A stretch of 64,000 nucleotides of DNA from Apostichopus japonicus (Eukaryota > Echinodermata > Holothuroidea > Aspidochirotida > Stichopodidae), in the NCBI RefSeq assembly GCF_037975245.1, contig NC_092577.1, positions 35,768,898-35,832,897 on the forward strand. The letters are read 5' to 3'. Positions 10,201-57,438 of this stretch are shown here, piece by piece (position 1 is the stretch's first letter; every line of letters begins with the position of its first letter). The notes beneath the pieces are model-generated. The model did no database searches. It was not told the origin of the DNA and was given only the letters and a program-made list of their open reading frames with translations. The translations under genes and the position numbers were made by a program.

Positions 10201-13163
10201 AGCGATTCCGCTACCATCAGAATCAAAATTACAGGTATGAGAAAATGGAATGAATTATGCATGCCCAATGTTACCCTGTAGAACAGAGGGTCAAAACTTT
10301 AGAATAAAGGGGGCGCCCTTCATATATAGAGCATGACAATACAATGGAGTAACAAGAAAAATGTCTTAAACTCTGTTATATCCCAAAAATTTAAGAACGT
10401 TTTAACCCAACTGTGATTTATCATAGTTTTTGTTTCTTGGTGGAAGGTGTTGACCTGAGACTAGTTGAGATCATATTTGATACTTTTTTTAGTTAGTGTT
10501 TGCCAAACTTGGACATTGGTGAAGTTTCACCTGCAACATCTAAGAGCTGGCAGACTTTTCTTTACTAGCAAATTGGCCTAAATGGTTGCTACATTAGTCT
10601 ATGATACTGTAGAGGGTCCATATGTATTGCTATGTTAATTAAATATGTTAGGGCTATGAATATCAAGCCATTGGAAGTGTCTACAACATGTGTTGCCCTA
10701 CAACAAAGGTAATGTCTAAATGTATCATCTTGTACATTAAATTAAGTTTAATCAGTCAACTCCGACTAACAAAATGTTTTTCAGCTTCATGCAGGAAGTG
10801 AAGTAATTATAAATACGGGGATTTTCTTCTTCATTTTCTTGTGAGTTTAATTTTAATTCCTGATTGCAAAACAGACAAATAAATGCTCATGTATATTGTT
10901 CCTGTTTCTCCAAATTTTTTCAGATGCTCCGAAAGCTCCAGAGAACGCCCGCGTGAGCGACTTATCCCACGAATCAGTCACAGTGTCATGGACCGCCCCA
11001 GCAGAGGATGGCGGTACTCCAGTCACCGGGTACCTGATTGAAAGAGCCGACAAGGGATCGGATGTATTCACAAGGTGTGCCACCTCTTCAGAAACCACCT
11101 GCACGGTCAATTTCCTCAGTCCCAACAAGGAATATCGTTTCAGGGTGAAAGCAGAAAACATCATTGGTGCGAGCGAACCAATAGAAGTGACTCACACGAT
11201 CACCACACCCGGTGAGTCCCTGCCACCATTTACCACCTCTCACCATTCATCCATTCTACCACCCCACCCCCCTCCCAACCCCCCGACCCTTAGGTACTTA
11301 GCCAAAAGAATTTGGTGGTTGCGTCCTTTAGAAGTAGTAAACAAGTTGCCTTATGTGTACAATGGTATCAGGTGAGTTTCTGGCATCATTTAACCCTTCC
11401 CTATCACCCACAAAGCTTTTACCTTTTATCCTTGCAAACATTTGGCAAGTCTGAAGGCACTAGCAAGTGTACTTTGCAGATTAAAGGCAGTATGCATATA
11501 CTGAAATAACTCATGTTGAATTTAAAATCAAAGAAGACTTAAAATCAAAGATATCGTAGGGTAAAAGAAAGTTTTACCTTGCAAGTCTGAATGACTTAAG
11601 TTTAACTGAATGTGATTTTTAATGTTAGTAAAATTAATCTGTATTCCCTGTTTATTATGATATATTTTGCTGACTAGAGAGGTTTCATTAAAGGTGTATT
11701 TATTTCTTTTCGTTGTCTTTCTTTCTTCCAGAACCAGAACGTAAAATCAAGTTCCAAATGGAACAGGAACAAGAATCAGGTAATTAGAATCGTTAACTGT
11801 ATTGAGCTAAACCGGTTTAATTATCTTTGAGAAAAGTGTAGGCAGTAATTAACAGTTTGCTCACATTTCTATAAGTTTATGTTTTCTCAGAGATTAATTC
11901 TAAACAGCTTTACATTATTTTAATGTAAATTTAGAAAAAGTAAATATTGCCATTGATTTACCAATAAGTTATTTAGTGACGATTGCAAGTATAAACAAAT
12001 TAAATTATTAAAATAAATAAAATATTTATTAATAAAAGTGAATTATGAAGAAAACAGGATACTATTCTATCTCATTTTTTGCTTGATATATTGATTTCAT
12101 ACTTGTTAAAGCAATTTTTTTGCACTTGCCTAAACAAGTTTAGTAAAACCCATTGAGTATTACACAAACTAAGATTGCAAGGGAGCCTAATGACAAACAT
12201 TTTTTCTTCCAAAACAAATTTTATTACATTTTAACTCAATATTTTGAAGTGAATCTTGAAAACCTAAGCTAATAAAGTACATTTTTGTGGAAATCCAGCA
12301 TTGGAAATGCCCAAAATCTACTCTCAATATAGTAAGGAATAAGAATGGTTTTGATGTGATTTTTATTTTTCTGCTACCAGCTGCACCTAAGAGAGGGACA
12401 AGGCGCCCAGCTGACTATGATTACTTGGGTAAGTATAACATGGTGTGAATTACTTAAGTAAGTAGAACATGGTGTGATTACTTAGGTAAGTATAACATGG
12501 TGTGAATTACTTAAGTAAGTAGAACATGGTGTGATTACTTAAGTAAGTAGAACATGGTGTGATTACTTAGGTAAGTATAACATGTTGATAGAACAGTTAT
12601 TTACATCTAGACGTTGGTGACTTTGGAACTGATCTTGAGTAAATTCAAGTTTATTCAAACACAGAATATTCTGTGTCCCACAAATTTTACTCTTATATGC
12701 TTGACTGACTGCACTTGCAAAAATATGGAATTTCATTTGTTTGGTGCAATTTTGTTGGAATGACAGTAACAGACCATATTTTCAGTTATGTCTTCTTTCC
12801 CTCAAGCCTGGGATATGAAGATAACACAGGTTGACAAAATAACTTGAAAGAATAATGAGATTTAATGTTATTGTCGGTATTAAAGTGATCTTAGTATTTC
12901 AGTATTAAGTATTCCTCACCATATTAGGAAAGAAAAGCTGCAGCAGCAGCTGCAAAATCCCCTGCAGCATGGCTGAATATCAAATAATAGAGATTATCTC
13001 AGCAGAGCAAGCAGTGTCTACTGTGTGAAGCTGACAGCAGAAGATATTTTGTTCTACATAGCTGGCCTCTTGGACATGGTGTCTTATTATTCTGGTCGTA
13101 TTGTTATTATTACTATTATTATGATTGTTATTATTATGATTGTTATTATTATTATTATTATTT

Positions 13164-13200
<37 letters not shown>

Positions 13201-16200
13201 ATTATTAATATTAATACTATTATTATTATTTTTTATTTTTTTATTTTTCAGTTGACGATACCTTCAAAGCTGTCAAGGCTAAATGGAGGAAGGGAAAAGC
13301 AGAAGACAAATATGACATCATGGAGGAACTTGGCAAGTACGTACCAATGGCAGCTTGATTTCAAAGTTGGATTTGCATATCTGCATAAGTAATTATGATA
13401 ATCAGGTTCTTTGATAATGATTGGTTTGTAATACATTTGCATCACAGCTGGGCAAAATACAATCAGCATAAAACACACCTGTAAAGTTTCTTAGGGTATT
13501 TGAGGTTTTAAAAAAACTATCAATGCAGCCCTCTGCAATGTTGTAAAATCAGAGCAATGATTGTGAACATGATCTTCTATTTCTTCCAACTACTAAGGGG
13601 TCCGTTCGGTGTCGTCCACCGAGCCGTAGAGAGGTCCTCGGGCAGGAACTTTGCTGCTAAGTTTATCAACATAGAACCCAAAGACAAGGCTCTCCTGAAG
13701 GAAGAGATGGAGGTGATGGGATGCCTGCAACATCCTCGTCTCCAGAGACTCCACGATACCTTCGACCAGGATGACGATCAAGTCGTCCTCATTCTCGACC
13801 TGTAAGCATTTTAGCTTTAAAATTTAAAAAGAAAGGTAGACTTGCTAGCAAGCGTAACATATACCAGACTGTTCCCACATCTAGTTTGAAACTTTGTTTG
13901 AATCTGGACAGAATGTTTTTGAACCGACCAGAACTGGAACCCGCAATTATCCGAGACTATGTAGAGCTTCCCTCTCTGGTCAATGTCAGAGTCATCACTG
14001 GCAAGTAAATACTAGATGGAACTTAGGATAATTGGCAGAATAATGAGAAGATGGAAGGAGGGGGGAGGGGAGGGGGGTGGTGGAAAGGTGGACTTATTTT
14101 ACCTCTCTGTATTTTCAAGCCCTTTTCCAGCTACAATAGCAATGCCCTTTTCATCTTTCATTCCATCTTCATCTTTTTCTCTTTCCATCTATACAGTTTG
14201 AGCGGTGGTGATGCATTCCAGAGAGCCAGGGATCTTGGCTCACTCACCGAAGATGAAGTCCGTCTGTACACTAAGCAAGTTTGCGAGGGTCTGTTGCATA
14301 TACATAAGGAAGGCTACATGCATCTTAATATGAAGGTTCGTTACCTATGACACCTCTCTTTCAACTAATTAACTTATTTTCGTACAAACTCAGTATGCAT
14401 TGATACGATTTTACGATGTATTGATTTAAACACATGATGTTATGTAAAGAGAAACAGATAATTGTTAATTTGCAAAGATGTCATTGAAGATGGCCAATTC
14501 TGTCACCCAGACACATTGTTCACACTCAGTTTGGTGTATTTATACAATAGGAACGTTAATTCAAAATATTACAGTATTACCTTATTATCACTGAAATTAA
14601 GGCATAAATCGTTAGGGTATGTATCTCCATGAACAAAGGAGAAAACAGTTTCCAACCCATTTTCCCTTCACAAACAAGAAGGTCTCCTTATATGGTTATT
14701 TTCAAACAGACAATCTATATCGAGTGAAATAGGCCCAAGTTTTGTGAATAATTAAAATCTGTTATGTTAATGAATTGTACAGTGCGATACATATATGCAC
14801 CAAATCTTCAGATTCACTATCAAATGCTGCTCTGGGACACTAATAGCAGTAATTTGTCTCATTTTTCAATCCTTCATTTTTAGCCTCAAAATATCCTCTA
14901 TGAGACCAAGAAATCAGACTCCCTAAAGATCATCGACTTTGGTTTAGCTATCAAACTGGATCCCGATGAGAGAGCCAAGATTGTCCAAGCCAAGCCTGGC
15001 TACTCCGCCCCTGAGGTCCTCAATAACGATGCTGTGGGCTTTGGCACAGACATGTGGACCGTTGGTGTCATTGTGTACACACTGTAAGTGTAAATCTTGA
15101 ACAGGAAAACTATCTGTAAAAAAAAATACAAAAGAATTTCTCTTTTATAAGCATATAATTTATAATACATTTGGTTCTTAAGTCTAAATGCATATTGTGA
15201 TAATTTCACTTTGTATGAAAGAGATATTACTCAGTCAAAGTTTGTCTCAAGGTCACCAGAAAACCCCTTTGATAACAACATCTTCAAAATTTATATTAAT
15301 TGAACATTTTACAAAAATTTGAATAACATATTTGAAAGGTTCAAATCTTGAAAAGCAAAATTAAAAACAGGTTCTCTCTTTTGTAGGCTGATGACAATAT
15401 GACAAAAATCAAAATGTTTTCTTTTGAGGTAATCGTGTTAAATTAACAATTTCACATCATTTGTCGACAGGTTGAGTGGTATCCATCCATTCGAGGAGTC
15501 AGCTGACAAAATCAAGAGCTGTGATTGGAGCTTTGACCGAAGTGCTTTCCGTGACATCTCTGAGGACGCACAGGATTTCATCTCAAAACTTCTGGTGAAG
15601 AGCAAAGAGTAAGTCGCATTTTGATTTCTTGAGATGTCTTCGTCCATTTTCCGAACTACGATTTTGCGATCAATGTATATATTGGAGATCATTCATTGAT
15701 TTATTTATGATGCTATCAAACAATCAGACAATTTGAAATGACTAAATCTAATGTCTTGACAACTCAATGAAGCTAGAAGGTGCCTCATGGCACCAGACTT
15801 TTACAGCTAGTAACACAGCAAGGGTACAAGTGGAAGTGCTCTGGTAGTATGCTGAGTATGTGTACAAAGCTGTCGGTATGATTTTGAGTACTTTGCAAAG
15901 CCGAGTACTTAAAAAAGCTGTCAGTATGATTTCAAGTATTTTACAAAGCTGTCAGTATGATTTTGAGTACTTTACAAAGCTGTCAGTATGGTTTCGAGTA
16001 CTTTACAAAGCTGTCAGTATAGTTCTTTACTCTGCACTAGTTCACTAGATTTCCAAAATGGTCTGGTATGAGTACGAGTACAAGACCATGAGGGCCAGTA
16101 ATGGCATAAGCAAATATGCTAGAACTCAGGTACAGACCTGCTACAAGGCTATAAGACCACACAGCACACCAGGTGCCACCCTTACTACTTATGATCTAAG

Positions 16201-19200
16201 TTATGATTAATTTAATTGGTAGCTATAGAGATCTACTGAATATAAAACATTGAACTGGGCCTCCACTGTGATCAAATTATGGTGCTCACATTTCCACTTG
16301 AGATGGACACCATCACCCACCAAATTAGGTAGACACCATTTCACACAAGGTACACACCACCATCCCACAAGAGGTGGAGGTAGACACCATCACCCAAATG
16401 AGGTGTACACCATCACCCCACATGAGGTAGTCACCATCCCACAAGGTAGACACCATCATTCCACATGAGGTGTACACCATTACCCCACATGAGGTAGACA
16501 ACATCCCACACGAGGTAGACAACATCGCACAGAATGTAGACAACATTGCACATGAGGTGTACACCATCACCCCAAATGAGGTAGACACCATCCCACAGAA
16601 GGTAGACAACATCATTCCACATTATCTAGACCCCATCACACACGAGGTAGACACCACCATGCCAAACGTGACATTGCTTAATAAGAAATTGCCTTTGATA
16701 CCTCGCAATAATGTGATCTAAGTTTCCCTTTTCTCTCATTTTCTCTTTCATCAGTGATAGAATGGGAGCACATGATTGCCTTGATCATCCATGGCTGAAG
16801 GTTTGTTCCACAAATAATTTTTAACCATTGTTGACTTTATGGCCATCAAAACTAGCCAACCTTCTTAAATTTGCATATTGAGTTTGAATGTTTAATTTGG
16901 ATTGTTGTGTCATATGACACTATATGTACACCTTCCTTGCTCTAGTTTACCTCGCATTAGGAAATTATGAAGATTTCACTGTTGGAATAATCCGATATAT
17001 GACCTTGGTTCCCATTCACCAAAAAGTGTGTGAATAATAAATGGATTCTTAAAGCAGTGACCACCCAAAGATTTTTTTTAAACTTGCATGCTCTAAAATT
17101 TTGTATTGAAAAATGCAAATCTCTCATGATTGTTTTTATTAGCAGCCGATAGGGTTATGGTTTCAAAATTCTAGAAAATACCACTTTCTGTTCAATGTTA
17201 TATTTTACCGTGTCTCCTATTCTTTCAGGGCTCCAGCAAAAACTACAAAGCGCGTATCGATGTCGGTAGACACAAAGCTATGTGTGAATCTGAAGATTGG
17301 ATTGTAAGTGGTAGATGTTTCTATATCATTTTTATACATATACTATAAGCTAACATTCTGCATTCATGTATTTGCCTGGTGGTTTATGTCATGTTAATTG
17401 AGTAGAGTATAATGAATCATAATCAGTTTAACTCACGACCATCCAATACGTTCATAACCCTTTTAATCCTCTCCTCATTATCCTTCTCCTTGTAGGAGGG
17501 TGAAGCCACACTGCCCATTGGTCGTATCGCTGCTTATGGTGCACACAGGAGAAGGAGACCACTGCAAAGCGATGTTGTTATTTGTGAAGCACGTATTGGT
17601 AAGTTCACCTGATGGGAGGGGAGGTGTGGGGGGGGGGATGGTTGGGCTTCAGTGTGCTGTACTCAGTATCTTAGCCATGTTGTTATTTGTTAAGCAGGTA
17701 TTGGTAAGTTCACCTGATGGGAGGGGAGGTGTGGGGGGGGATGGTTGGGCTTCAGTGTGCTGTACTCAGTATCTTAGCGATGTTGTTATTGCGAAGCACG
17801 TATTGGTAAGTTCACCTGGAGGTAGGGGAGGGGGGAGGGGTGTTAGGGCTTCAGTGTGCTTTACGCAGTATCTTAGCGATGTTGTTATTTGTGAAGCACG
17901 TATTGGTAAGTTCACCTGGAGGTAGGGGAGGTGGGGAAGGGGTGTTAGGGCTTCAGTGTGCAGTACTCAGTATCTTAACGATGACATTATTTGTGAAGCA
18001 CGTATAGGTAAGTTCACCTGGAGGGAGGGGAGGTGGGGAAGGGTGTTAGGATATCACTGTGCTGTACTCAGTATCTTGCATCAATTCTTCTTTTGTTTCA
18101 TCTATTTTGCCTTATTGCGTAATTACTAAATGTTTGATCTAGCATTATAAGATTAATTTATACTCTGTTACCTATCATGATGTAAAATTAAAAGCCTAAA
18201 CAAATCATCACCAAGTGTTATCACGCATTCCATCCCTTAATTGTTCACACCATCAGTCATTTTCAATGATCTATGACACCCTTTTTCTTTTTTCTTGCTC
18301 CTTTAAAGACAAAAAGGATGCCAGACCGCGCTTCTTGAAGCGACCACATAACCTGGCTCAGATGGAAGACCGAGATATCAGCTTCCAGTGCCATGTAGCT
18401 GCTCCAGTAGATTCAGAAGTTACTTGGTGAGTGTTTAACTTCCCTGTGGTGCACTAATATGTGATTCTGCCTCTCAGTTCTTGCCCTACCTCTATCTTCC
18501 TCCAGCCTCCCCCACCCACCCCCACTCCCCCAATCATCTGTCAAACGCATAGTCAGTGGTGTCATTGTGGTAATTGTGCTGAAAAAACTAGTATTTGTTT
18601 TATTTATCATTTAGAAATCATTAATCCACCGTAAGACAACAGTCTTAAAAAACAAGTTGTATAGTCATGGAATTCTAAATGAAGAGAAAAGTTGACATTT
18701 AGCGAACATTCCAAATGTATCACATTGGAACAATGATATATGACAAGAATATAAAACTTAATGTTAAGAGCATTTAACAATGTGACATTGTAGACAACCT
18801 AATAAGATACACTTCCTTGAGTGTGGAAGGGTTTCAATCTGGTAAAAAATAGTTTACGTTCAAACAACCATATCTAGAGTTAGAGAGAAGATATTGAGAC
18901 TGGGTTTTGAACTATCACAGAAAAATAGTTTCTCTTCCATATAAGTTGTCAAAATTTCTGCTTCCAGAATTCTTTAAACTCTTATTCCTTTATTCCCCAT
19001 CTTTACCTTATCCTGATAGGAGGTGTAATGGTTTTTTGAGGGTTTGTAGTGTCACAGAATGAATTGCAATGATAGACGCTGAGGAACAGAAGGAAACGTT
19101 TTATTTCATTTTTCTTTATTCGCTAAGGTACCATAACGGTGAAGTTATCAGACAGAGTCTACGACACAGAATAGACTACGACAAAATCTTCCACAATTTA

Positions 19201-22200
19201 AACATCATGAGAGTATCGGAGGCCGACCAGGGAGAGTACACTGTAAAAGCAGTCAACCAGTATGGTGAAATGACACACACTATGAAAGTAGAAGTAGCAC
19301 GTGAGTACAGCTAGCAGTCAAAAGAAATGGACCACTATTACAACCAATCACAAAGCAGGATTTATCTGTCTGCCTTCTGTAATGATCTATCAGTGCTCAT
19401 TGGTACTTGCTGGTCTTGGAAATGGATTAAAAACATGTTGATGATTTGCATATTTGTATGACAATAAATAATCTTTGACTGAAAATTGGGAAAAGCACAA
19501 TTTTTTATCATGAAAAATTGTTCGAAGAAATCATGACTTTGAATCACATATTATTATGATTATTATTTTTAATTTTATTATTATTGATTAATTATTATTT
19601 GAGTTTATATCAATCTTCTACTTTCTTTTGCTACCTTACAGCTGATCCATTGAAGAGAAGAGTAAAGTTGAAACCAAAGTAAGTCAAGAATTTCAGATAT
19701 TTGTATGTGTGTGTGTGGATGACACAACCTTTCATTTAATCTTGTACTCTGCCATGGTCAGTTCATGAACAGGTCATTTGTCGGTTTGAGCTGACGGTGC
19801 AGAATAACTTGACCATCCAGACAATTTGAGCTTAGAGGTTTGTCCAAAATATGTCCATAAAACATTTTGATACAGTTTCCTTTACTTGAGGCAAATTTGC
19901 CATTCAGCTATACTTTCTGTTCTCTTCTTGAATGTTTCTTTCGTTGGGTTTGGGTCTATGGTGCAGTACGACCTAGACCATTCAGAAGCATTGCCACGGA
20001 GGTTGTCCCAACTTAGGAAAGGAAACTGGTTTGCTGCGGTTTAATGTAATATTGGACACTGTGATGGTCCTGACAGAACACAGCGTGATCTATAATATGT
20101 GGTTAATATTTAGTACATTGATATTGATATTATTATTTTTATTATTATTTAAACATTTCTAAAGCGCACATTTATATGTAAAACATAAGCTGTGGCACTG
20201 TACAAACTTAAAAGAGTAAAGGTAAAAAACTTAAAGAAAATTAAGAAACCATGTTAATCCATGTTTAACCATGATATTTGTATTAATATACTCTTAATAT
20301 GCCATTTAATAGTCTCGTTGACCTTCAGACAGATAATTTTAATTTGCAGATTTCCATCTAATTATTTAAGGGGTGTGGGGGGGGGACAATTTTTTGTGCA
20401 CCATTGGTAACTCAAAAGATACCTGAGATAAGGTTTTGGGTTTGTCTCTTGTTTCTAATAATTTTTATTGTGTTTTTATGTTACTTATTTGACCATCAAT
20501 GTTAATTTTTCGACCAGATATGTAGCAATGCCAATGCCTGAGAAACCAAGACACAGTCCAGAGTTTACCTTCCAGCTTAGATCCAGAGGAGTGCAAGAAG
20601 GAAGCCATGGCAAACTGAGTTGCATCGTACAAGCATATCCACCCGCTAAAGTTAGTCCTCGTTACCTTCACTTCAATCTAATGTTTTGTACATTGCTTGA
20701 GTTGCATCGTACAAGCATATCCACCCGCTAGTGTTAGTCATCGTTACCTTCACTTCAATCTAATGTTTTGTACATTGCTTGAGTTGCATCGTACAAGCAT
20801 ATCCACCCGCTAGTGTTAGTCATCGTTACCTTCACTTCAATCTAATGTTTTGTACATTGCTTGAGTTGCATCGTACAAGCATATCCACCCGCTAGTGTTA
20901 GTCATCGTTACCTTCACTTCAATCTAATGTTTTGTACATTGCTTGAGTTGCATCGTACAAGCATATCCACCCGCTAGTGTTAGTCATCGTTACCTTCACT
21001 TCAATCTAATGTTTTGTACATTGCTTGAGTTGCATCGTACAAGCATATCCACCCGCTAGTGTTAGTCATCGTTACCTTCACTTCAATCTAATGTTTTGTA
21101 CATTGCTTGAGTTGCATCGTACAAGCATATCCACCCGCTAGTGTTAGTCAACGTTACCTTCACTTCAATCTAATGTTTTGTACATTGCTTGAGTTGCATC
21201 GTACAAGCATATCCACCCGCTAGTGTTAGTCATCGTTACCTTCACTTCAATCTAATGTTTTGTACATTGCTTGAGTTGCATCGTACAAGCATATCCACCT
21301 GCTAAAGTTACCTTCACTTCAATCTAATGTTTTGTACATTACTTGAGTTGCATCGTACAAGCATATCCACCTGCTAAAGTTAGTCCTCATTACCTTCACT
21401 TCAATCTACTCAGAGTTATGGAGCCATTAATACCTTAAAAATAAAATATATTTGTCCAGTAGTGTTTTTTCTCATGGTTGTGTGCATTCTATCAAATTGC
21501 CAGAAACAAAATAGGGACAAAAATGTGTACATTAAAAGTATTATCAGATCTCTATGTGTTTGTCTAATAATATATGTTGTACTGACATAGTTGATAGTAC
21601 CATGAAGCATATTTGATTCAAAAAAGTTTCTGGAACAGAGTTATTTGATAGCAACTTCCCATAAATACACTAAGACAAAAGAAATGAATAATTAATTAAT
21701 ATTGAATCCGGTCACAAGGAATGGTTCATTTGTTGAAAAAGTTATTTCCTTGGCAATCAATGATGATTGGGCAAAATGTAATAAATGTATTTTAAAATGG
21801 ATGGAGAAATATTAAGAGTTTTGTGCATTCTAACTCTCCTAAGCTATTTATCTAGTAATGTGCTCTATTCAGCTGTGACAAACAGGCCAATCAACACTCA
21901 TGATTTACCTTGCCGGTATTTTTTGAAATTTCAATGTTCTCGTCTTTTGCTCGATTAACTCTTACCTTGTATCTTCTTTCAACGTTTGTTGGAAATTGGT
22001 TTCATTTTAAACTCTAAACTGACAGTGCTGGACCCAGTAGAGCAATTTGCAAAACTTTTATAAACACGATTAATTTGTCTTTATCTTAACCTTTGATACT
22101 TTGAGCTGCTTTCATTGGTCGACATCTTTCAGGTTAGGTGGCTCTTCAACGGTAACGAAGTGACTCGATCAGATCCCGACATGAAGTTAGAGTTCTCTTA

Positions 22201-39525: not shown

Positions 39526-39531
39526 TTTATT
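39526..39531 (-). terminator. AATAAA overlapping the stop codon of copy 1
   Basis: On the minus strand GAATAAATGATAAC places an AATAAA across the TAA stop. The same arrangement occurs at the ends of copies 2 and 3 (about 50,366-50,371 and 63,341-63,346). It may be chance from Glu-stop-A, so function is uncertain. Confidence 0.3.
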
Positions 39532-42500
39532 CATCTAATTTGGCCATTTTCACAACCTCTTCTTGTTCATGCGGTGGCTCAACTTCTACATTCTCCCGAA
39601 CACTGCAGGGCATGCGCCCTCTTAGCCGCTTCGGTAAGCAACAGGCAAAGAGTTCCCCTATTGGACTGACAAGATCAGGATTGAGACTACTGGGATCAGT
39701 TGGGTGGGTAATTAAGCTGACCAATAGCCCAACAATCACGGTTATAAAACATGTCAAAGGGGTGTAGTAGGCATAGGATAAGGCATAAATGTTACCAAGG
39801 TTAGGGTCAATTTCATCTTTGTCTTCTGTCACTGTGTAAACAACTTGATCAGTGAGGGTGATGTTTGCATTTGGACACTGATCGGTGAACAACGGTGGTT
39901 TGTCTACGACCGCAGGATACACCAAGGAGCCTACTTTCAACCATATTCCAATGCCCAGTGCTGCTAACATGCCCAGCAGTGCGCCTTTCGAATTAGCCCT
40001 AGGGAAATAGATCCCAAGAGAAAACACTCCAAGTATGGGACCATTCAAAATACCCGCAAGGCTGACAACGAGGGGAAGAAGTCCACCCAATGATGATGCC
40101 AAAAATGCCATTGCCATTGTCAGGAGTCCAAATATAACAGATATCAGCTTCAAAATAAGGGTGAAATTGAAATCTGACATATCGGGGTATGCAGCTTTGA
40201 TGATGTCTTGACCAAACAGCGTTGCGAATGCGTTCGTACCCGACGAGATGGTACTTAGAGTAGCACTGAACACAGCTGATATCAAGAACCCAGACACTCC
40301 TGGCCATTCATTGAAAATATCTATTATAATGTAGGCCATGAGTTGATCTGGTTTTTGTACTTCTTTGAGGGTGAGGGGGTCACACCCTGCAAAGTAAGCG
40401 TACATTGACATACCCGTAAGAACAGCGATGAATTCGACAATACCTATACAGAAATTCCCCACTGCTGCCACCCACTGAGATTGCCTCAGTGACCTGCAAG
40501 TCAAATACCTCTGTACGATGATTTGATTGGTCCCGTTGTATGACATTACGAGAGTACCAATTCCAATGAAGACCGACCAGAAGCTATGACGGATTTTTGG
40601 ATCAAGACGGAAATCAAAGAAGGTCCCTCTGTCATCTCTAACGTTGATCCTGAAGACTTCAGTAAGTCCACCGACGTGAATACAGCAAGCAACGATGGTG
40701 AGGATTAAACCAGCCATGAAAATAATACTCTGTGAAACATAACACAAATATCAGAAACAATTGGAATGATATAAACTAGCACTAGCCTAATAACAGCAAC
40801 CTTAATTACACGTCTCGTTATATTAATATCACATTTGAGGAGCCAAATCTACTGAACAGTTCTGTCTGGCCAATACAAAAGAATGGGATTGTTAGTATTA
40901 GTAATACCATAGTATACAGCTAGCTAGACTCACTATTTAAATTATACAACTTGGTGGACATGAACGTACAATGTGCATTCCGCTGTACATATATTATACA
41001 TACCAGGGTTTCCCTTGCTAATTGTTTTGTGAGGTGACAGCCTTTCTGCTTCTTGCGACCGTCTTGCAACAATACTACCAACATCCTCGCCTCACTCTTT
41101 CAGAGCAGGAATAGAAAATGCTTGCAATCCAACTCTTTTAACACCTTGCCATCATTCTGTCATTGACAAATTGGCTGTGAACACTACACAACAGCAACAA
41201 ATAAAAGTTCTTCTATTTAACATAGCATTTTATCTGATTTATTGCTACGATGATTGACAGTAGGATGTTAATAACATTTTCCGGGCGAACATAGCCGCAT
41301 CCCCCCCCCCCCCCTTCACACTCTCGAGGTATGCTCACGCCCTCCAGTGTAACAAACCAGTAACCACCTCTCACACGACTAATCCTAGGGTAAACCCTGT
41401 AAAAAAAAACTGCAATTTTTAACCAGAATGAAAACATTTCATGGTTTCTTGCTGCTGCTCATTGATTTGGGGAACACTACAAGTATGTAATGATGAAGCA
41501 GTAATGTGTACAAGCTGTTGTTACCAAATTAATTCTAGTCATGGTCTTTCATAGACATGTATGAACCATTTGGCATTTGTAGAATACATCAGTGTGTGTT
41601 TGCTATCATCAATTTCACTAACCAAATTTTGAAGATGAAACATTTAGTTTCCACATGGTAACTGCAATTTGCTATATAATTCTTCAGCCGGTAAATTCAT
41701 CATTAATCATGAGATGGGCACCAAAAACAAAACAGGTTAACCTACTCACTACAAATGGTAATGATCAATAATTTCCTTCACATCAGCATGTATAGGTGGT
41801 CTACCAATATCACCAAACCAAGTTTGAAGAAACTCCAGCTTTTGCTTGCCAAGTTATTGCAGTTTGAAGATTTTGACGTTTGACCCTGTGACCTCATTAA
41901 CATTCATAAAATGAACACCGAAATCAATAGGGTTTACCTTATCATGCAGCGTAATGCTTTTTAGCAGTTTTAGTCTGATAAGTGTCTCATAAACATCATA
42001 TCCAAAATCGACACCGACACTGGTTGTCTGACCCAACCAAAATGGCGTCTAAATACAACATGGCGGCGGTACATGATACCTTGAACAGACTATGACACTA
42101 CAGTTCTTCCTCACTATCGATGTCGTAGTCTACAACATAGGAGTAGCACCATCCACGACATTCACTGCATCCTACAGAACACTCCAAGCCATGCTTCCTA
42201 CATAAGCATCGTTTCGAATCACAATTGATTCTGCATTTACATCTGATGACCTGCAGTAGCATTTCAGGAGCTGACGGTTAGAGTGACATGGTGGGCATCG
42301 GGCTTATATTATTCGTATACCATCCCCATTCGTGGGCTTTGGATACTTCTTCTTTTGAGGCCTGTCTGGAAAATACTTCACCTTATTTCTTAAAATTGTC
42401 GTCATTTGTCATTTTCCTTAATACTGGGCCTTTACCTATTCCAAACGGATGAGAAGTGGTGTCACAGCCCCTTAAAGCGTGCACAAATGGCAGATGCTTG

Positions 42501-45500
42501 CACATGTCTTCTCCCAATACATTCGTTGTCTTCTGTATGTCCCAGATCCTTCGCATGTTTGATTTTTCACTCATGAAGTATACGTTATGTGAGGCATTGT
42601 TGGCATGGAAACAAAGAAGCTTGACTATGTATATTCAGCAATAACAACTGTTGCTTAGTTTGTAGAGCATTCGACAACTTGTTGTACTATCAGCGTAAAT
42701 CGGCATCGGCTTCGGCATCGAACACACTAAGACCTCTTTCTTACATTTTCTGACACAACATGTAAGATATCGTTGTTTGTTGCATGAATTGGCGAGGAAT
42801 ATGTCTCTTCGGGATCTACAAGGCACGCTTTTAGTTAACAATACTGTTGATCCGAGAACTCCTTTTCACCTCTTGATATGAGCAGTGTCTTTTGTAAATG
42901 AGCCATTTGCATAACCATCAAAGACGACCATGGCGTTACCATACAATTTGTTGACATAGTCCAAGGACATCTTACAAATAGTGTTGAAGCTTTCGCCTTG
43001 GCGCCACGGCAGAAGCTGTAGGAGGGAAACACCGTCTAAGGCAAATCTTAATTCAACTGATTGCAGTTCGTGTCGTTACATTCATCTAGGCCCCATATTG
43101 CATCAGCGAGGGTAGACCTATTTGATGCTCTCAGAAGACCAGATGGCCGGTCAAACAGTGATGATGGGTGACTGCATAGTTCGTAACGGAAAAGTCCTGC
43201 CTTGTCGGCGTAGATACCATTTGACGCCAATAATAACACTCGCTTGAAGAGGAGTTGTGGTTCAACTTCAATTGAATCTTCATCCACTTTGACAGCTGTT
43301 TTGGCGTTCATTGTAGTGGCCTGCTGTGATCGCTTGAACGAAACTCCTGTCATTCCTTTTCCAGCAATTCCTTGCACAATAGTCGATTCGACATCTTTGG
43401 CCTTGTCTACGTTTACATTTCCGTCAGCTATAACCCCTGTGTCAATGTTTCGTAGAGATGGATCTTCTGCAAACGGATCCCTATTTTGCAGAAACGAAAT
43501 AACAGTGAACATATGCTTGTGATCAATTTCCGTTCGTCTCTCGGAGGATTCTTGTGTTGACTGCTTAAGTGGTAGTCAATTCCGCATCCAGCTTGCATAG
43601 CATTGTTCTTATCTGCACATGCTGGCATGTGCTGGCATGAAAGTATCCACGTTACCCTTTCGGAGTCTGTCATGCCACGTCATCTTGTCAAACCACCTGT
43701 TGTTTTTACAGATCTCATCAGTACATGTTCAATCACAATATCGGATGAGAGTCCAGCCAAAATCGATTACTCCCCACGGATCATATGATTACCATTTTGG
43801 ATCTCGGAATGATCTTCGGGATGATCAACTTCTAATTGTATCATCATTTGCAGATAAACAAGTTGTTCCCTGTAGCAGCGAAATATTGTAACATTTCTCT
43901 TATTGTACGTAGATGAAGATTCCAGTCACCAGTCTGTTCAGCTTTATTAAACAGGCGAAAAAATCAATCATATGCGTATAATGTATCCAAAGGGACCCTG
44001 TGCGAAGATTAGATAAAGAAAGTTTCTTCCTCTCAAGCTCTTCATTTATACTGTCGAGCACATCTCTTTTTGCAGATCTCTTGGGGTGAGCTTGTCTCGT
44101 CCCTTAGTCTGTTGTATAGGTTCTCTGCCGTTAAGAGTAGTTGAACTTCAGAATACGAAGAGGAGAATCCCAGTTTATTCAAAGTATCTATTAGGAACCG
44201 GGATCCGAAGTGGGTTTGCATTTGTATTCCTAATACAATTTGCAGAGGAGTCATCATAAACCTTGATAGTGCAGCATGGATACTGGCGTGTCCAATTGAA
44301 GATACTTTCACATTCTGTTTTCCAGTCATAATAGTTTTTTTAAAATAGTTTCAAACTGTCAGGAATATAAGTTAGACTTTGCTCAGTTGACGACACACTT
44401 GATGAGGATGGATATCTCAATGCGATGCTTCTATTTGCTTTATATCACTTTTTATAAGTTTTGCAGCAGCTTCTGCTATACATAACTTTTTTCAGAAACT
44501 GCGTCTTGATGCCGTAGCCTCTTTGAAAATTGTTGCAAAATTGACCATACTGTGTTTGTGAATGTTAAAACAGTTATCAAGATGTTATCTCCAAAGTGAT
44601 CCTGTATCCTTTTCTTGGTGTATACATGCAGTGTTATAATGGTTAGGACAAAATTCTCTCATTTTCTTGACTAGATCGGTAAGAGTAGCCTGTACTTCTT
44701 CATTTTCTTTCAAATATTCCGCAACTCTGATAAATTCCGCCGCTTGATTTTCATCTTCAGGACGTCCAGGGGTTTGTTTGCTCTTAGATTTACATTAAAA
44801 AGACTTTGGAAGCTGAATGTGTGTTCTTAAATTAACGCTGCATGCCTAGTGCTATATTGCATCTGCAGTATGTAAATCGCCCAAAAGTGCTAATCAGGCT
44901 TTCACCTGTTTTGCCCATTTGTCGTCTAGGCCTCGGTCGTAACAAGCCGAATCAATTTTAATTTGAAGTAGGCCTCCAATTTCATGGCTAGGCATCAGTA
45001 CATGTATTTCGGTTATACTAATAGCCTAACACAGGCTTAGCGAAGCTATCCTTTGGAGTGTTTTCTTCTTTTTGTGTTATATTCACTTCATTTTAATCTG
45101 TAGAATGGCTATTAAGTATCACAAAAATGAGCATCGATTCCTTACCTAAAACATTCCACGCAGATCACCGATAGCAGTCTCAAAAACGTTACATCCTTGC
45201 TCAAGTTCAAGGTTTCCGTGACCGAGCGTTCGATTGTGAGCAGTAGCAGTAGCCACGGCAACGGCTAGATAATTGTTCACCGTAGCTGATAAGAAGCATT
45301 AATAAATTCGTCACAACCGTCCCCTTTTTGAGCCAAAGTTTCGGTATGTGGCAAATGTCGATTGTTAGTATGTTACTAAGACGAAAGAATATAAACTATT
45401 AATTTGCGTTGAAATAATTAATGTTGCAATTTGTTTAGGGTTAAAGCATCAACTGAATGGACTTAAAAACTTCGAAGTCACCCAAAATATAATACTTATT

Positions 45501-46794
45501 TTGGGGCTGACATGTACTGGTACTTTATACTGTGCATAGCTAAACGTTAATCTATTACTACACATTGGACAGCACACCTACTGTACTTTTAAATGCATCT
45601 ACCGTATACCCACTACACACTGCCGAGTCTATATGTAACGCCGGAGGAAAAGATGTTCGGTGGTGACATATTCCTGGGGGTGGGGTGATGGGAGCTTCGG
45701 GTCTCTGCCGGTGACGACAAGAATGGAATAGACACGATGGTTTTTGTTCTAGTCCATGTATTATATCTGCTAGCGTACGGTCTGACACCGTACTGACGGG
45801 CTCTCATAGAGCTATTAAAGTAACAACTTCAACTGCTGCAAAAGCAGTCAAAAACGTAGTTAAAAGATTAATGGAAATCTTTGAAGTGTTGTATTAACAA
45901 GTGAAAGTAATGTGTCTCAGAAAAATAGATCTCAAGGCTACCCCACGCACTGAGGGGTCTCCCAATCTGGGAGGAAGGGCAAGTTCCGATGGAGTTAAAT
46001 TCTAAGGCAGGCCAGCTATTCCAAAATGGCATGGCTCTACATATAGAAGAACAATACGTGTTGACATAACCTGTACAGTATTTCATTTAGCTTAAAAACA
46101 CTATGTCGTCTATAAATATAACTACGTTGCACCCAGACCTATTCACTGTATTATTTTCATTGCCCAGCAAGATCTGAAAGTATTATGTACTGTGAGCCTG
46201 CAGGAAGCTCCTCCTAAATCTACAAGAAAAGCTTACCTGAAAAACGTCTGCCCAAAGGACAGCTTTGATTCCTCCAATTGTGGTATAGAAAGTGCAGACA
46301 AGACCCACAGCGATGGTCGACCCAGCCATACTCAAACCAGTTACAGCATTTAGGGCGAGAGCTGGTCCGTATATCACCACTCCCAGATACAGTAATAGGA
46401 ACAAACAGTTGATCAGCATTCCAAATAATCGAACGTCTCGGCCAAATCGCATACCAATGTATTCGTAGATGCTTGTTACTCCCAATTTATAAAAGATTGG
46501 CACAAATGATTGAGAAATAATTACCATTGGTATTATTTTGGCTGGGAGCGCAACCCAGTATTGCGGTCCATATATGTATGTATCTGCTGTTGTTCCCAGG
46601 AATGTGACGGACGAGACAAAACTAACCACTACTGACATAGTAACAGGTATGGGATTCATTTTCCGATCAGCAAGAAGATACTCATTAGCTGTACGCTGCC
46701 GACCTCCCCGGAATGCATGGTACACACCGATGGAGGCTGATAAACCCAAGAACAGAGCAAGCACAATATAATCAAGTGCAGACAAATAAGCCAT
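39527..46794 (-). CDS. SLC5-family sodium-coupled monocarboxylate transporter-like protein, copy 1
   Basis: Two coding exons on the minus strand, 46237-46794 and 39527-40729, give 586 aa. The donor CAG/GTAAGC and acceptor TTTCACAG/AGT join in phase 0. The start is the ATG of MAYLSALDYIV, conserved in copy 2. The protein has SSF traits: EYLLADRKMNPIPV, GGIKAVLWADVFQ at the splice, and SATLSTISSGTNAFA in the TM8 region with the Ser pair of the Na2 site. About 13 hydrophobic segments are expected. It likely moves small organic anions such as lactate or short-chain fatty acids with Na+ across the plasma membrane; SLC5A8/SLC5A12 (610-618 aa in human) are the nearest relatives by recall, and SLC5A6-like vitamin transport is not excluded. 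The C-terminus (EVVKMAKLDE) lacks a PDZ-type end. Confidence 0.92.
40730..42299 (-). other. Intron of copy 1, unique part
   Basis: Similar to the intron of copy 2 (51,570-52,720) with small indels, including the C run at about 41,299-41,313 next to the block CACGCCCTCCAGTGT. Some AT-rich sequence (about 41,740-42,300) has no counterpart in copy 2. No exon is seen. Confidence 0.6.
42300..44340 (-). mobile_element. Decayed protein-coding transposable element in the intron of copy 1
   Basis: Broken minus-strand frames include NRDPFAEDPSLRNIDTGVIA with VNVDKAKD and VEPQLLFKRVLLL (43,048-43,512), YELCSHPSSLFDRPSGLLRA, and HALRGCDTTSHPFGIGKG (42,383-42,574). These are hallmarks of a mobile-element protein family scattered through invertebrate and fish genomes (recalled, with the GCDTTS motif). 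Frameshifts and stops separate the pieces, so it is dead. The same remnant is in copy 2. Confidence 0.72.
44341..45774 (-). other. Intron of copy 1, continued
   Basis: Mostly absent from copy 2, so unit-specific. 45,600-45,774 matches the internal part of the LTR-like element of copy 2 (56,000-56,172), including TCTCTGCCGGTGACGACAAG. No exon is seen. Confidence 0.55.
45775..46041 (-). mobile_element. Single LTR-like repeat in copy 1
   Basis: It matches the 271-bp direct repeats at 55,014-55,284 and 56,173-56,443, ending CTCTACA followed by the same flank (TATAGAAGAAC) as the right repeat in copy 2. Part of the element's interior precedes it, so this is a truncated relic rather than a clean solo LTR. 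Confidence 0.6.
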
Positions 46795-47077
46795 CTTCTG
46801 GACTTCTGTAGCTTTGAACTTGAAGTATGACGAGAGTGACCAAGTACGATAGTAGTAGTAGGCTCAGCTCTGCTGCAGGGGATGTTGCCTTCCTAAAATG
46901 AACAGCTCAGAACTGTTCCTCCCGTGTACAGTATTTTTGTGTATGTGTGTTTCTACTCTATTCTATATTAAACTACTGCATAGGATCAGTTCTCAGCCTG
47001 TGCTTCAGCGGTTACATCACCATACTACCTCCAGGGATTTACGATTATGGGTGATACTGTCGTCGTTTCTGCGGGCT

Positions 47078-47088
47078 GATATATATAG
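47078..47088 (-). promoter_or_regulatory. TATA-box candidate of copy 1
   Basis: The minus strand reads CTATATATATCAGCCCGCAG about 285 bp before the ATG. The same TATATATCAGCCCGCAG context is kept before copy 2. No transcription start is proven, and the TATA could be a microsatellite seed. Confidence 0.4.
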
Positions 47089-47450
47089 ACACAACAGGTA
47101 CCATCAATATTTGGGAAACGAATATATTTCCTTTCAAAACGTGAAATGAAAAAGCAGAAATGTACGTTAAACAAAGACTCGAGACTGGAAATACCATTTT
47201 TGCGGGATCATCGTGGATGATTGCATTATCGTAATTTCCAACACAGCAGTTAACGTAGTTCCACTCCAACCAATGAAGACAGAATTATTAATTATCGAAA
47301 TTTCGACTGCCAAGTATTGATGACGAGGTCACAGGGGGACCGATAAATCCAATATAGGCTATTTTCCAAACAATACCCCTTATTTGTCAATTATGAGTAA
47401 TATCTTATTTCTAGTTATATATATTTATAAATATATAAATATATATATAC

Positions 47451-47481
<31 letters not shown>

Positions 47482-48021
47482 CATACATATATATTGTTGG
47501 GAAGTCAGATACAGGTTGTAGTTTGTTCTTAAGGTTTTGTTGTCGGAGTGGGAAAGTAATCGGCAGACGAGAAAGTAGACGAAAGGGAAGTTAAATGTAG
47601 AATGAAATTTAATATAACTTTCCTTGCAGTTACATGAAAATATACAAAAACACAACGCACTGGTACTAACAAACATAGGGCGTATGCTAACGCGTGCGGA
47701 GGTACCTCCTGTAGGGGTTGGTCCGGCCGCTAGTTACGGGATGGTGACTGTTGCTGTTAAGCCGTTTTCCACAGGTGAAGAGGTACGAAAGTTCAGGTAA
47801 GCGGGTTAAAGGAATAGCGTTGTGACAAGATAAAAATGCAGGCATGTTCACATGTTAAGGCAAGAACGAATGTGTGAGTCAGCAGCAGCCGAGGATCAGA
47901 GAGGCTGCATCACGGTAATCTGCATGGCGTAGCTTGACAACGAAGGAATCCAGACCAGTCACATACTTAGCATGGTTAACATTGTTTACAGACAAAAAGG
48001 ACATTGACTCTTTTCATAATA

Positions 48022-48062
<41 letters not shown>

Positions 48063-48500
48063 TATCATATATATATCATAGCCTAAATTCGAATAAATTG
48101 GGAAGAAATGTAATGCGCATTTCATATATATATCCGCATATATAGCAGGAGGCTCGGGTTCGAATCCCGGTGGAGACTGGAAGTTTTTTACTGTTCTGGA
48201 TTTTTCCAACTAATTGCAGTTTCAAATTTGACTAGAATAGCATGAACAGCGTGTAGATTGGTCTTGATTAAGTTATTCGAAACGATATGTATCTTCACTT
48301 CATCAGCCTCGACAATATATAGACTAGTATAAAATGAAAAAGCCTCAAGAAATATATAAAACGGTTAGGGTAAATCAGCCTAAAAAATACATAGAGCTTA
48401 GTAAGAACTGAATCAGGTATGACGTAATAATCACGCGATGAAAGATTTATGTTTAGGTTCTTGGATGAGGACGAGGGGTTATTGTGTTATAGTTGCCCTT
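47089..48500. other. Intergenic DNA between copies 1 and 2, first part
   Basis: It holds TA/ATAT microsatellites (about 47,418-47,495 and 48,025-48,075), a block beginning TTGTTGGGAAGTCAG also found after 59,146, and a tRNA-like T-arm at 48,148-48,172. No coding sequence is seen. Confidence 0.55.
48148..48172 (+). other. tRNA-like T-arm (B box) remnant
   Basis: GGCTCGGGTTCGAATCCCGG is a perfect B box with a complementary T-stem, followed by TGGAGACTGG and a T run. There is no matching D-arm or anticodon arm upstream (only TATA-type repeat), so it is probably a SINE fragment rather than a tRNA gene. Confidence 0.5.
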
Positions 48501-49028
48501 ACGGCGTTCGTCGAGATTCTTTACTGTAATGTTTGTCACTCAATAATAATCCGAAGTAGGATGTAACTGATCAGTTGCACAGCATTCTGAATACACTATT
48601 CATTATTTTGTTTACGGCTTTTTCAATTGCGTTATTTTCTTTTTAATATATCGCGATGGAAGATCCGGTTATAATATTAATACTGGTACCCGAAGGCAGA
48701 AATCACTGAGCCGTTTATCATTGTAAGGGTTGAAATGATGTAAAAGACAACTGCATAGTCTAACATCGATATACAATATCCATACCTGTACTTTACTGTA
48801 ATGTTTGCCACTCAGTAATACACATTTCACTATTTTTTAACTACTTTTTCAATTATTTTCATTTCCATAATATCGCGGCGTTAACTGATGGAATATCTGC
48901 TTAAATATTTATACTGGTACCTGAAGACAGAACTAACCAGAATGCAAAAATGCATTGTGGTTTCGATAATGTAACATGAGCAGTTTTCTTCATGAATCTG
49001 ACGTAACGTATAGTGAAAGGTGTACATG

Positions 49029-49285
49029 TTTACAAGTGTTTCACAAAATGACCTCTGATGAGCCCAAATGACCTTTGACCTCCACCAATAAAGGCTTCTT
49101 TAACTCAATGTGGTACTTCTACACACTAAATTAGAGGTCAGCCCAAGCTTCCAGTATTACCATATCGTGAATACAAGGTTTTCACAATTTGTCACCTGGT
49201 GACCCCAAATGAACTTTGCCCTACACCAATAACAATAGGCTTCTTTTACACAATGTGGTACTCCTACGCATCAAATATGACTGCA
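49029..49285. repeat. About 140-bp interspersed/tandem repeat with DR1-like motif, unit 2
   Basis: Two units of the form CAAATGACCTTTGACCTCCA, AATAGGCTTCTTT, ACTCAATGTGGTACTTCTAC, AGGTCAGCCC and AAGGTTTTCACAATTTGTCA. The family is larger (three units) at 60,090-60,505. Confidence 0.8.
49069..49081 (-). promoter_or_regulatory. Perfect DR1 nuclear-receptor-type motif
   Basis: TGACCTTTGACCT is the reverse complement of AGGTCAAAGGTCA, two half sites with one spacer, the consensus bound by HNF4/RXR-type receptors. It lies within a repeat family about 2 kb upstream of the copy-1 promoter candidate. Function is inferred from the motif only. Confidence 0.35.
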
Positions 49286-50366
49286 TAGTCTAACATCGAT
49301 ATACAATATCCACACCTGCACATTTAAATGCGAAGAGAATTCGACGCATCATGTGTATAACGTAAAGATGTAAGGAACGGTAAAATCCAACGGTTGGCTT
49401 GCGCATTCCTCTCGGTGTCTTAATGTTCGTTAATTTACACTAAATTGATATATGATTAGTGAAAGACGAACCAAATACAAAGGGCTCGTATAGCCTCGTA
49501 TATATATATTCTTCAATTGAGAATGCGATATCAATATTACTATTAGCTGTTAGATAATTTAAAGGTAAACACTTTTAAACAATGCCAGGATACAGTCTAA
49601 TTTTCATATATAATAGACAGTTAAAAATGCTAATAGTCCACTTTATATTTGTCAGTTACTCCCCTCCCCCCCCCCACCCCCAGAAATAGCCCTTTAATGG
49701 GTAGAGTGCCATCAACCAAAGTGACTGGACTACAAATCTAGCACACACAGTAGGATGGCTTATCAGAAATAACACGAGTTTGAAAATTCAATGGAAAAGA
49801 GACTCAAATACTATGTTTAAATTCCAAAACAAAAGTTAATCAAGGGCAAATGAAGCTGCTGTCGTTCGAGAGTGCTCATTAGTTTGTATTAAGTTGTTAA
49901 AAAAGAACAATTTGTGACAGAGTAATCATTATTTATGAAACAAAATAACCAATATTTAGGCCTGGACTGAGAAGCCGAAGTTGTGGAGTTTTGACACAGT
50001 TCGCACTTCATGCTTTCCTTCTCTGTCCAAGATGATGTTATGATATGTATCACTGTTGGCATTCCTTATAACGAGTTCAAACAAATTGGGCTCATACACC
50101 CATGTTTGCATAGCATGTTAGCAAACATTTAAAAGCGAACGATTAGGCAAAGATGGACGTACTATTACCCAGTCCTGTAAAAATAACGACAAATTTGTCC
50201 AAAACTGTGCATATTACATATTTCATGCTCTTTGAACTGATGAAGTAATCAAAATTAGCTTGCTATTTTGCAACCAGCACCCACACATATGGTAGATAAA
50301 ATCTCATAAAAACAACTGAGTTATTCTAGTCGCAGCCAGAATACAACTTGATATATAAGTTATCAT
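49286..50366. other. Downstream flank of copy 2
   Basis: Aligns with 38,200-39,526 and 62,380-63,341 (3' flanks of copies 1 and 3). It has C runs at about 49,663-49,680. No gene is seen; it probably includes the 3' UTR of copy 2. Confidence 0.55.
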
Positions 50367-53300
50367 TTATTCATCTAATTTGGCCATTTTCACAACCTCT
50401 CCTTGTTCATGCGGTGGCTCAACCTCTACATTCTCCCGGACACTGCAGGGCATGTGCCCTCTTAGCCGCTTCGGTAAGCAACAGGCAAATAGTTCCCCTA
50501 TTGGACTGACAAGATCAGGATTGAGACTACTGGGATCAGTTGGGTGGGTAGTTAAGCTGACCAATAGCCCAACTATCACGGTTATAAAACATGTCAAAGG
50601 GGTGTAGTAGGCATAGGATAAGGCATAAATATTACCAAGGTTAGGGTCAATTTCATCTTTGTCTTCTGTCTCTATGTAAACAACTTGATCAGTGAGGGTC
50701 ATGTTTGCATTTGGACACTGATCGGTGAACAAAGGTGGTTTATCTACGACCGCAGGATATACCGAGGAGCCTACTTTCAACCATATTCCAATGGCCAGTG
50801 CTGCTAACATGCCCACCAGTGCGCCTTTCGAATTAGCCCTAGGGAAATAGATCCCAAGTGAGAACACACCGAGTATAGGACCATTCAAAATACCGATAAG
50901 GCTGAGAACGAGGGGAAGGATTCCACCCAACGATGATGCCAAAAATGCCATTGCGATTGTCATGAGTCCAAATATAACAGATATCAGCTTCAAAATAAGG
51001 GTGAATTTGAAATCTGACATATTGGGGTATGCAACTTTGATGATGTCTTGACCAAACAGCGTTGCGAATGCGTTCATACCCGACGAGATGGTACTTAGAG
51101 TAGCACTAAACACAGCTGATATCAAGAACCCAGACACTCCTGGCCATTCATTGAAAATATCTATTATAATGTAGGCAATGAGTTGATCTGGTTTTTGTAC
51201 TTCTCCGAGGGTGAGGGGGTCACACCCTGCAAAGTAAGCGTACATTGACATACCCGTAAGAACAGCGATGACTTCGACAATACCTATACAGAAATTTCCC
51301 ACTGCTGCCACCCACTGAGATTGCCTCAGTGACCTGCAGGTCAAATACCTCTGTACGATGATTTGATTGGTCCCGTTGTATGACATTATGAGAAAACCAA
51401 ATCCAATGAAGATCGACCAGAAGCTATGACGGATTTTTGGATCAAGACGGAAATCAAAGAAGGTCCCTCTGCCATCTCTAACATTGATCCTGAAGACTTC
51501 AGTAAGTCCACCGACGTGAATACAGCAAGCAACGATGGTGAGAATTAAACCAGCCAGTAAAATAATACTCTGTGAAACATAACACAAATATCAGAAACAA
51601 TTGGAATAATATAAACTAGAAATAGCCTAATAACAACAAGCTTAATTACACGTCTTGTAATATTAATATCACTTTTGAGGAGCCAAATCTACTGAACAGT
51701 TCTGTCTGGCCAATACAGAAGAATGGGATTGTTAATTTTAGTAATACCATAGTCTACAGCTAGACTCACTATTTAAATTATACAACTTGGTGGACATGAA
51801 CGTACAATGTGCATTCCGCTGTACATATATTATACATACCAGGGTTTCCCCTGCTAATTGTTTTGTGAGGTGCCCGCCTTTCTGCTTCTTGCGACCTTCT
51901 TGCAACAATATTACCAACATCGCCGCCTCACTGCTTCAGAGCAGGAATAGAAAATGCTTGCAATCCAACCCTTTTAACACTTTGCCAACATCTGACATTG
52001 CCAAACTGGATTTGAACACTACATAACAGCAACAAATAAAAGTTCTTCTATTTAACATAGCATTTTATCTGATTTATTGCTACGATTATTGACATTAGAA
52101 TGATAACAAAATTTTCCTGGCGAACATAGCCGCGTATCCCCTCCCCCCCCCCCCCCTCCAGGTATGCTCACGCCCTCCAGTGTCACAAACCAGTTACCAC
52201 CTCTCACACGACTAATCCTAGGGTACACCCTGTAAACAAACAAACTGAAATTTTAAACCAGAATGAAAACATTTCATGGTTCATTGCTGCTGTTCATTGA
52301 TTTGGGGAACACTCCAAGTATGTAATGATGAAGCATTCCCTTAAGTTATGTGTACAAGCTGTTGTTACAAAAATAATGCTAGCCATGGTCCTTCATAGAT
52401 ATGTATGAAGCATTTGTAGCATACATCAGCGTGGGTTTGCTATCATCAATTTCACTAACCCAATTTTGAAGATCAAACATATAGTTTCCACATGAGTAAC
52501 TGCAATTTGCTGTATCCCTCACCCAGTAAATTCATTATAAGTCATGAGATGCGTACCAAAAGCCTACTCACTAAAAATTATAATGATCAATAATTGCCTT
52601 GTGAAGTTATCAATCATACTAACTTGTAACCTAAACAATGCAAAGCCACACCTCCACATAAATACACATGTTAGCAATTGCACACACATTTTCATGTGTT
52701 GAATACCTGCCAATAACACATTTATACTTCTTCTTTTGATGTCTGTCTGGAAAATACTTCACCTTGCTTCTTAAAATGGTCGTCTTTTGTCATTTTCCTT
52801 AATACTGCGCCTTTTCCTGTTCCAACGGATGGGAAGTGGTGTCACAGCCACAGGTATCGTGCACAAATGGCAGATGCTTGCACATGTCTTCTCCCAATAC
52901 ATTCGTTGTCTTCTGTATGTCCCAGATCCTTCGCATGTTTGGTTTTTCACTCATGAAGTATACGTTATGTGAGGCATTGTTGGCATGGAAACAAAAAAGC
53001 TTGACTATGTCTGTATCTTCAGCAATAACAACTGTTGCTTAGTTTGTAGAGCATTCGACAACTTGTTGTACTATCAGTAAATCGACATCGTCATCGGCAT
53101 GGAAAACACTAACACCTCTTTCTTCCATTTTCTGACCCAACATGTAAGAAATCGTTGTTTGTTGCATGAATTGGAGAGGGATATGTCTCTACGGGATCTA
53201 CAAGGCATGCTTTCTTTGAAAACTGTTGATCCGACAACTTCTTTTCACCTCTTGATATGAGCAGTGTCTTTTGTAAATGAGCCATTTGAATAACCATCAA

Positions 53301-57149: not shown

Positions 57150-57438
57150 CTTCTGGACTTCTGAAGCTTTGAACTTGAAGTATGCGAAATTGACCAAGTA
57201 CGATAGTAGTAGTAGGCTCAGCTCTGCTGCAGGGGATGTTGCCCTCCTAAAATGAACAGCTCAGAACTTTTCCTCCAGTGTGCAGTATTTTTGTGTATGT
57301 GTGTTTCTACTCTATTCTATATTAAACTACTGCATAGGATCAGTTCTCAGCCCGTGCTTCAGCGGTTACATCGCCATACTACCTCCACGGGATTTTACGA
57401 TTATGGGTGATACTGTCGGCGTTTCTCAGCTGCGGGCT

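Follow-up and report, generated by a model that had tools for sequence, protein, structure and literature searches.

Within a 64,000-nucleotide stretch of the genome of the sea cucumber Apostichopus japonicus (hereafter the window), a twitchin-type kinase carries asparagine in place of the aspartate that acts as catalytic base. The codon concerned, AAT at 14327..14329, lies on the forward strand in the third kinase exon (14197..14335; 139 nt), at a position where the compared relatives have Asp. We consider it probable that the domain is a pseudokinase inherited in this state, its nucleotide pocket still intact, and that it would serve as a force-gated scaffold with at most very weak phosphotransfer.

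Gene setting and family placement

The window lies on contig C17 of the assembly (671,581,487 bases in 35 contigs) and has a GC content of 38.1%. For comparison, the available part of a published description gives the A. japonicus HiFi assembly as 671.60 Mb in 34 scaffolds, with 23 chromosomes and 38.56% GC (PMC10344927). All exons of the kinase gene described here are on the forward strand. An FN3 domain directly before the kinase (10929..11201; Pfam fn3, 6.1e-18 on the open frame, local HMM) is followed by an N-terminal linker exon with a YD motif, PADYDYL (APKRGTRRPADYDYL; 12381..12428, exon ends judged by eye). The first kinase exon (13252..13336) encodes the end of the linker and the start of the Gly-rich loop, and the second (13598..13801) the remainder of that loop, FAAK and the alphaC Glu. 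The third ends in HLNMK; the fourth (14884..15083) contributes PQN, DFG and AKPGYSAPE, the fifth (15471..15608) LSGIHPF and an alphaG helix five residues short, and the sixth (16755..16800) reads DRMGAHDCLDHPWLK. A C-terminal regulatory tail comes next in two parts, 17229..17303 and 17496..17598, the latter bearing an R-7x-R motif (RIAAYGAHR) and Ile at position -2. The Ig domain after the kinase is encoded by 18309..18425 (the donor is one base later and the exon probably ends at 18426) and 19132..19296. The domain order is thus FN3-FN3-Ig-Ig-FN3, YD linker, kinase, R-7x-R tail and at least two Ig domains. In the 20 kb examined upstream of the window, further FN3 and Ig matches extend from 18.8 kb to 4.3 kb before its first base, as in an Ig/FN3 giant.

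The Ig-Ig-FN3-linker-kinase-tail-Ig setting is of the titin/twitchin type. As the YD linker, R-7x-R and tail -2 motifs are defined in the accessible part of PMC12862963, all can be recognized here. The markers of active twitchin kinases, AxK together with Leu or Ile at tail position -2, are present as FAAK and as the Ile of PIGR. Those of vertebrate titin kinase (TK) are absent: DFG and FAAK stand where TK has EFG and a bulky residue replacing AxK, and the nearest approach to the TK tail signature, [R/K]H[R/K]RYY with a small -2 residue, is RHKAMC with Ile at -2.

A phmmer comparison with PDB sequences placed the kinase domain nearest to twitchin and then titin, as for a DMT kinase (1kob, 2.4e-93; 1koa, 2.2e-90; 3uto, 3.6e-90; titin 4jnw, 4.5e-66), with 158 identities to 1kob over 330 aligned residues. 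The tail and next Ig domain matched twitchin 1koa (query 1-153, 70.7 bits), and titin 6ygn was absent among the 53 sequences listed for that search; the tail is closer to twitchin than to titin. Tree support was weak for a group of window kinase, TK and twitchin (75/74); window kinase and TK grouped at 65/47, and the pairing with twitchin was not rejected (p-AU 0.395). The gene most likely encodes a titin/twitchin-family giant muscle protein, the twitchin-type one of the sea cucumber. An earlier annotation of A. japonicus counted 6 predicted twitchins and 35 titins, according to the available part of PMC7599334. Published A. japonicus peptides had no match within the window, and the peptide printed for A. 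japonicus twitchin was absent from the window and from the 20 kb upstream.

Several other features of the window deserve mention. The exons of both kinase tails, the YD linker and the regulatory tail, bear minisatellites that contain their splice donors. At 17568-18077, about five tandem copies of a 102-bp unit carry the last part of the regulatory-tail exon, together with its donor, on into the following intron, so that this donor is present several times; at 12418-12584, a 28-bp unit in about 5.9 copies repeats the end of the YD linker exon and its donor into the intron. Between kinase exons 2 and 3, a 93-nt open segment (13912-14004; MFLNRPELEPAIIRDYVELPSLVNVRVITGK) is in phase and bounded by AG and GT. 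It may be a cassette exon, whose inclusion would interrupt the hinge of the kinase, or a chance occurrence; it scores 0.204 per codon, while other intron segments reach 0.338, the listed ones all in minisatellite. On the reverse strand, four open frames at 39527-57260 match the sodium:solute symporter family (PF00474), two of 407 aa (39527-40750 and 50367-51590) and two more at 46183-46863 and 56559-57260, in what looks like two tandem genes.

The catalytic loop and other lost positions

Kinase exon 3 is flanked by ...tatacag on the 5' side and gttcgt on the 3' side. Its last codons (14315-14335), TAC ATG CAT CTT AAT ATG AAG, translate as YMHLNMK, and PQN continues in the next exon at 14884, giving a spliced reading of ...LLSGGDAFQRARDLGSLTEDEVRLYTKQVCEGLLHIHKEGYMHLNMK joined to PQNILYETKKSDSLKIIDFGLAIKLDPDERAKIVQAKPGYSAPEV... 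across the junction. HLN thus stands in place of the HxD of active twitchin kinases; the aligned residues are HLD in twitchin 1kob and 1koa and HFD in human titin kinase 4jnw. The initial annotation had proposed, from the letters of the DNA, that Asn replaces the catalytic Asp of a twitchin-type kinase and that the exon concerned is open and in phase, and both points hold: the loop reads HLNMK followed by PQN, and the frame agrees with the exons on either side. The residues it listed as kept are indeed in place (the Gly-rich loop GKGPFGVV, the FAAK lysine, the alphaC Glu, the metal-binding Asn, DFG and APE), as is the catalytic-loop Lys. Among 38 exon pieces, exon 3 has the third-lowest codon-use score (0.078 per codon), a weak value. 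An alternative exon carrying HxD had been named as evidence that would refute the proposal; a tblastn search of the kinase against the 64-kb window recovered exon 3 once and no HxD exon, the other matches to that part of the kinase being noise.

The same annotation called the exon otherwise well conserved, which proved too generous for the domain as a whole. In an alignment of nine HxD kinases, comprising five from the same genome (three of them incomplete), two twitchins, MYLK4 and DAPK3, 49 columns are invariant, and the window kinase misses 12 of these (11 without the gap). One is in the hinge, two are at the start of alphaD, one is the base itself, one turns PEN into PQN, three are in the P+1 loop, one is the Ser of LSGxSPF and three are in alphaG (one a gap), a helix which is five residues shorter than in twitchin. 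The P+1 Thr, which contacts the catalytic Asp in active kinases, is Thr in all nine HxD rows and Lys here. When each HxD row was left out in turn, it missed 0-7 of 49-56 columns, gaps being uncounted in that test and counted for the window kinase. Tajima relative-rate counts lean the same way, with more window-only changes than partner changes in 9/9 comparisons, which share rows; the signal is weak, only three of the nine passing a chi2 of 3.84. A canonical catalytic residue has been lost, as in a pseudokinase, and the accompanying loss of catalytic-face columns strengthens that call, while showing that the Asn does not stand alone.

Out of the 49 columns, 12 are likewise missed in human titin kinase, and seven are common to both kinases (hypergeometric P 0.004, in a test chosen post hoc, after the overlap was noticed, and assuming all columns equally free to change). 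This overlap is the ground for a tentative and rather improbable history, in which the deuterostome giant A-band kinase would have drifted towards a pseudokinase before the split of echinoderms and chordates, losing substrate-face residues first. Each line would then have lost catalytic residues of its own, the base (now Asn) in the window kinase and those changed to EFG and MAK in titin, and in the echinoderm catalysis would have stayed with a second titin-type kinase.

Related kinases and competing explanations

A kinase search of the genome matched 148 places. A near-identical duplicate of the window kinase was rejected, since no scored place outside the window exceeded 55% identity (150 of 159 candidates scored). 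Twenty of the regions were examined, five of which (L019, L022, L023, L025 and L031) matched outside the loop only. Asp is kept in all six titin/MLCK/obscurin-like loops read (L015, L016, L017, L018, L020 and L021) and in nine others (L024, L026-L030 and L032-L034). The locus L017, on contig C23, has an Ig-FN3-linker arrangement with YD, an HLD kinase, an R-7x-R tail with Ile at -2, and an Ig domain. Its loop codons are CAT CTT GAT ATG AAG, against CAT CTT AAT ATG AAG in the window, with an identical intron position. Its kinase has twitchin as best PDB match, and its tail and next Ig domain align over their full length both with twitchin 1koa (56.4 bits) and with titin 6ygn (43.0 bits), which rank below single titin Ig domains; the trees give no firm placement to L017, nor to the window kinase between TK and twitchin. 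Several titin/MLCK/obscurin-like kinases (L015-L021) share this chromosome at 15.1-17.8 Mb of C23, a clustering that recalls the connectin-family genes reported on one amphioxus chromosome in the available part of PMC12198301.

As a bare DNA pattern, H-x-N-[hydrophobic]-K-P-x-N occurs at 58 places in the genome against 46 in a reversed control, compared with 148 against 30 for the H-x-D pattern; the window site, being split by an intron, is outside the HxN counts. Since the HxN count is near background, the bare motif means little, and the claim made here rests on the surrounding spliced kinase. Three of the 58 HxN places were read: two are not kinases and the third, L046 (G000:C16:37444400-37445100), is a kinase-like fragment (HLNVKPDNIFIGMDSLCKLGDFGLT); the remaining 55 include loci L035-L044. 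Pattern matches at 38.48, 38.89 and 39.29 Mb of C16 read HLD(V/F)KPDN, and L046 may thus be another duplicated kinase in which Asp has changed to Asn.

In the explanation that we favour, Asn at the catalytic position, together with the lost catalytic and substrate-face residues, would make the domain a pseudokinase, while the nucleotide pocket is kept (Gly-rich loop, AxK lysine, alphaC Glu, metal-binding Asn and DFG Asp), as are the two force-sensing tails with the YD linker, R-7x-R and Ile at -2. Stretch would pull the tail out, and the released kinase would most likely still bind Mg-ATP, with phosphate transfer very weak at most and a role as a force-gated scaffold. Phosphotransfer could be supplied in the same genome by L017, with its intact HLD, and by MLCK-type kinases, in a putative division of labour. 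In the twitchin and medaka TKb structures, the catalytic Asp is in contact with the second of the two R-7x-R arginines, according to the accessible part of PMC12862963; Asn would weaken that contact and tail release might change. Against this explanation, three markers (AxK, DFG and the residue at tail position -2) match those of active twitchins and make the kinase look active. The low codon-use score of exon 3, the low activity that HxN kinases such as HER3 and JAK2 can retain and the absence of the published twitchin peptide also count against it. Because trace activity is compatible with two of the explanations, their probabilities overlap and may add up to a value other than one.

The reading that survives best besides a pseudokinase scaffold, and overlaps with it, is a weakly active kinase that tolerates Asn and performs a slow, specialized phosphotransfer or autophosphorylation. 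It is unlikely: the ATP and Mg ligands are retained, and low activity has been reported for the HRN kinases HER3 and JAK2, whereas the substrate side has been damaged too (P+1 Thr to Lys, PEN to PQN, short alphaG). PSKH2 is neutral on this point, since none of its forms, HRN or HRD, showed activity when assayed (these reports as given in the available parts of PMC7586955 and PMC9988210). Somewhat less probable is a decaying kinase in an otherwise kept gene, the domain drifting without a scaffold role. The many lost invariant columns and a long end branch in the tree (0.86 against a median of 0.48) would suit such decay, but the kinase exons retain open frames, a matching phase and splice sites, and the motifs of both tails survive, which is not expected under drift.

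An assembly error or rare allele at one base, in a species whose kinase is normally HLD, is improbable. AAT does differ from GAT by a single base; a random base error is nevertheless unlikely because the assembly is likely a HiFi one, and a single sequencing error does not by itself explain the state of a domain that misses 12 of 49 columns, the P+1 Thr among them, with rate counts leaning likewise. Least credible is RNA recoding, in which A-to-I editing at the leading A of the AAT codon would let it be read as GAT for Asp: the target A has the correct register and is preceded by U (CTTAAT), but exon 3 taken together with its 3' intron alone folds no better than shuffles (z -0.39; 4/20 shuffles as good), and the other lost columns would persist.

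Comparison with known kinases

With the twitchin kinase of C. elegans and Aplysia (TwcK), the pseudokinase proposed here shares AxK, DFG, the YD linker, R-7x-R, Leu or Ile at -2 and an aligned next Ig domain. It differs in having Asn for the catalytic Asp, PQN for PEN, Lys for the P+1 Thr and an alphaG shorter by five residues. TwcK is described as active, and invertebrate twitchin kinases count as the active equivalents of the titin pseudokinase found in vertebrates, in the accessible part of PMC12862963. Vertebrate TK is alike in being a pseudokinase of a giant Ig/FN3 muscle protein with two tails and the seven shared losses. The initial annotation was right that the lesion is unlike that of titin kinase, which retains the catalytic Asp and has EFG and, as the bulky residue in place of AxK, MAK; the TK tail, with [R/K]H[R/K]RYY and a small -2 residue, differs as well. 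The same source, as far as available, records ELG in medaka TKb and DFG in 20 fish isoform a sequences (PMC12862963).

Loss of the base as a new route to a pseudokinase, the further suggestion of that annotation, did not stand: Drosophila obscurin PK1 has Gly at this position, and HER3, JAK2 and PSKH2 show the same Asp-to-Asn change. The scaffold or mechanosensor role that it named is a putative one. To our knowledge, PSKH2, HER3 and JAK2 are not giant muscle proteins and are without force-sensing tails. Their likeness to the window kinase is the Asp-to-Asn replacement in HRD (for JAK2 in the pseudokinase domain), and PSKH2 keeps the other ATP ligands (PMC7586955 and PMC9988210, in the parts available). 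HRN and HGN pseudokinase entries are also listed in the available part of PMC2754085. Obscurin PK1 is a sarcomeric pseudokinase without catalytic base that still binds ATP in a cation-free manner, but it has Gly rather than Asn, an altered metal-binding Asn and no developed C-terminal tail, as stated in the accessible part of PMC10129394. Asp-to-Asn loss, and loss of the base in a sarcomeric kinase, are thus already known, and Asn in a twitchin-type kinase is a new variant; a literature search over titles and abstract openings of mostly non-subscription papers found no published twitchin-type kinase with Asn at the catalytic base, which is weak evidence of novelty. With nucleotide pocket and tails like those of twitchin but no catalytic base, the window kinase would be a natural case in which ATP binding and force gating are uncoupled from phosphotransfer, and through it one can ask experimentally whether what is conserved in this mechanosensor has any enzymatic function.
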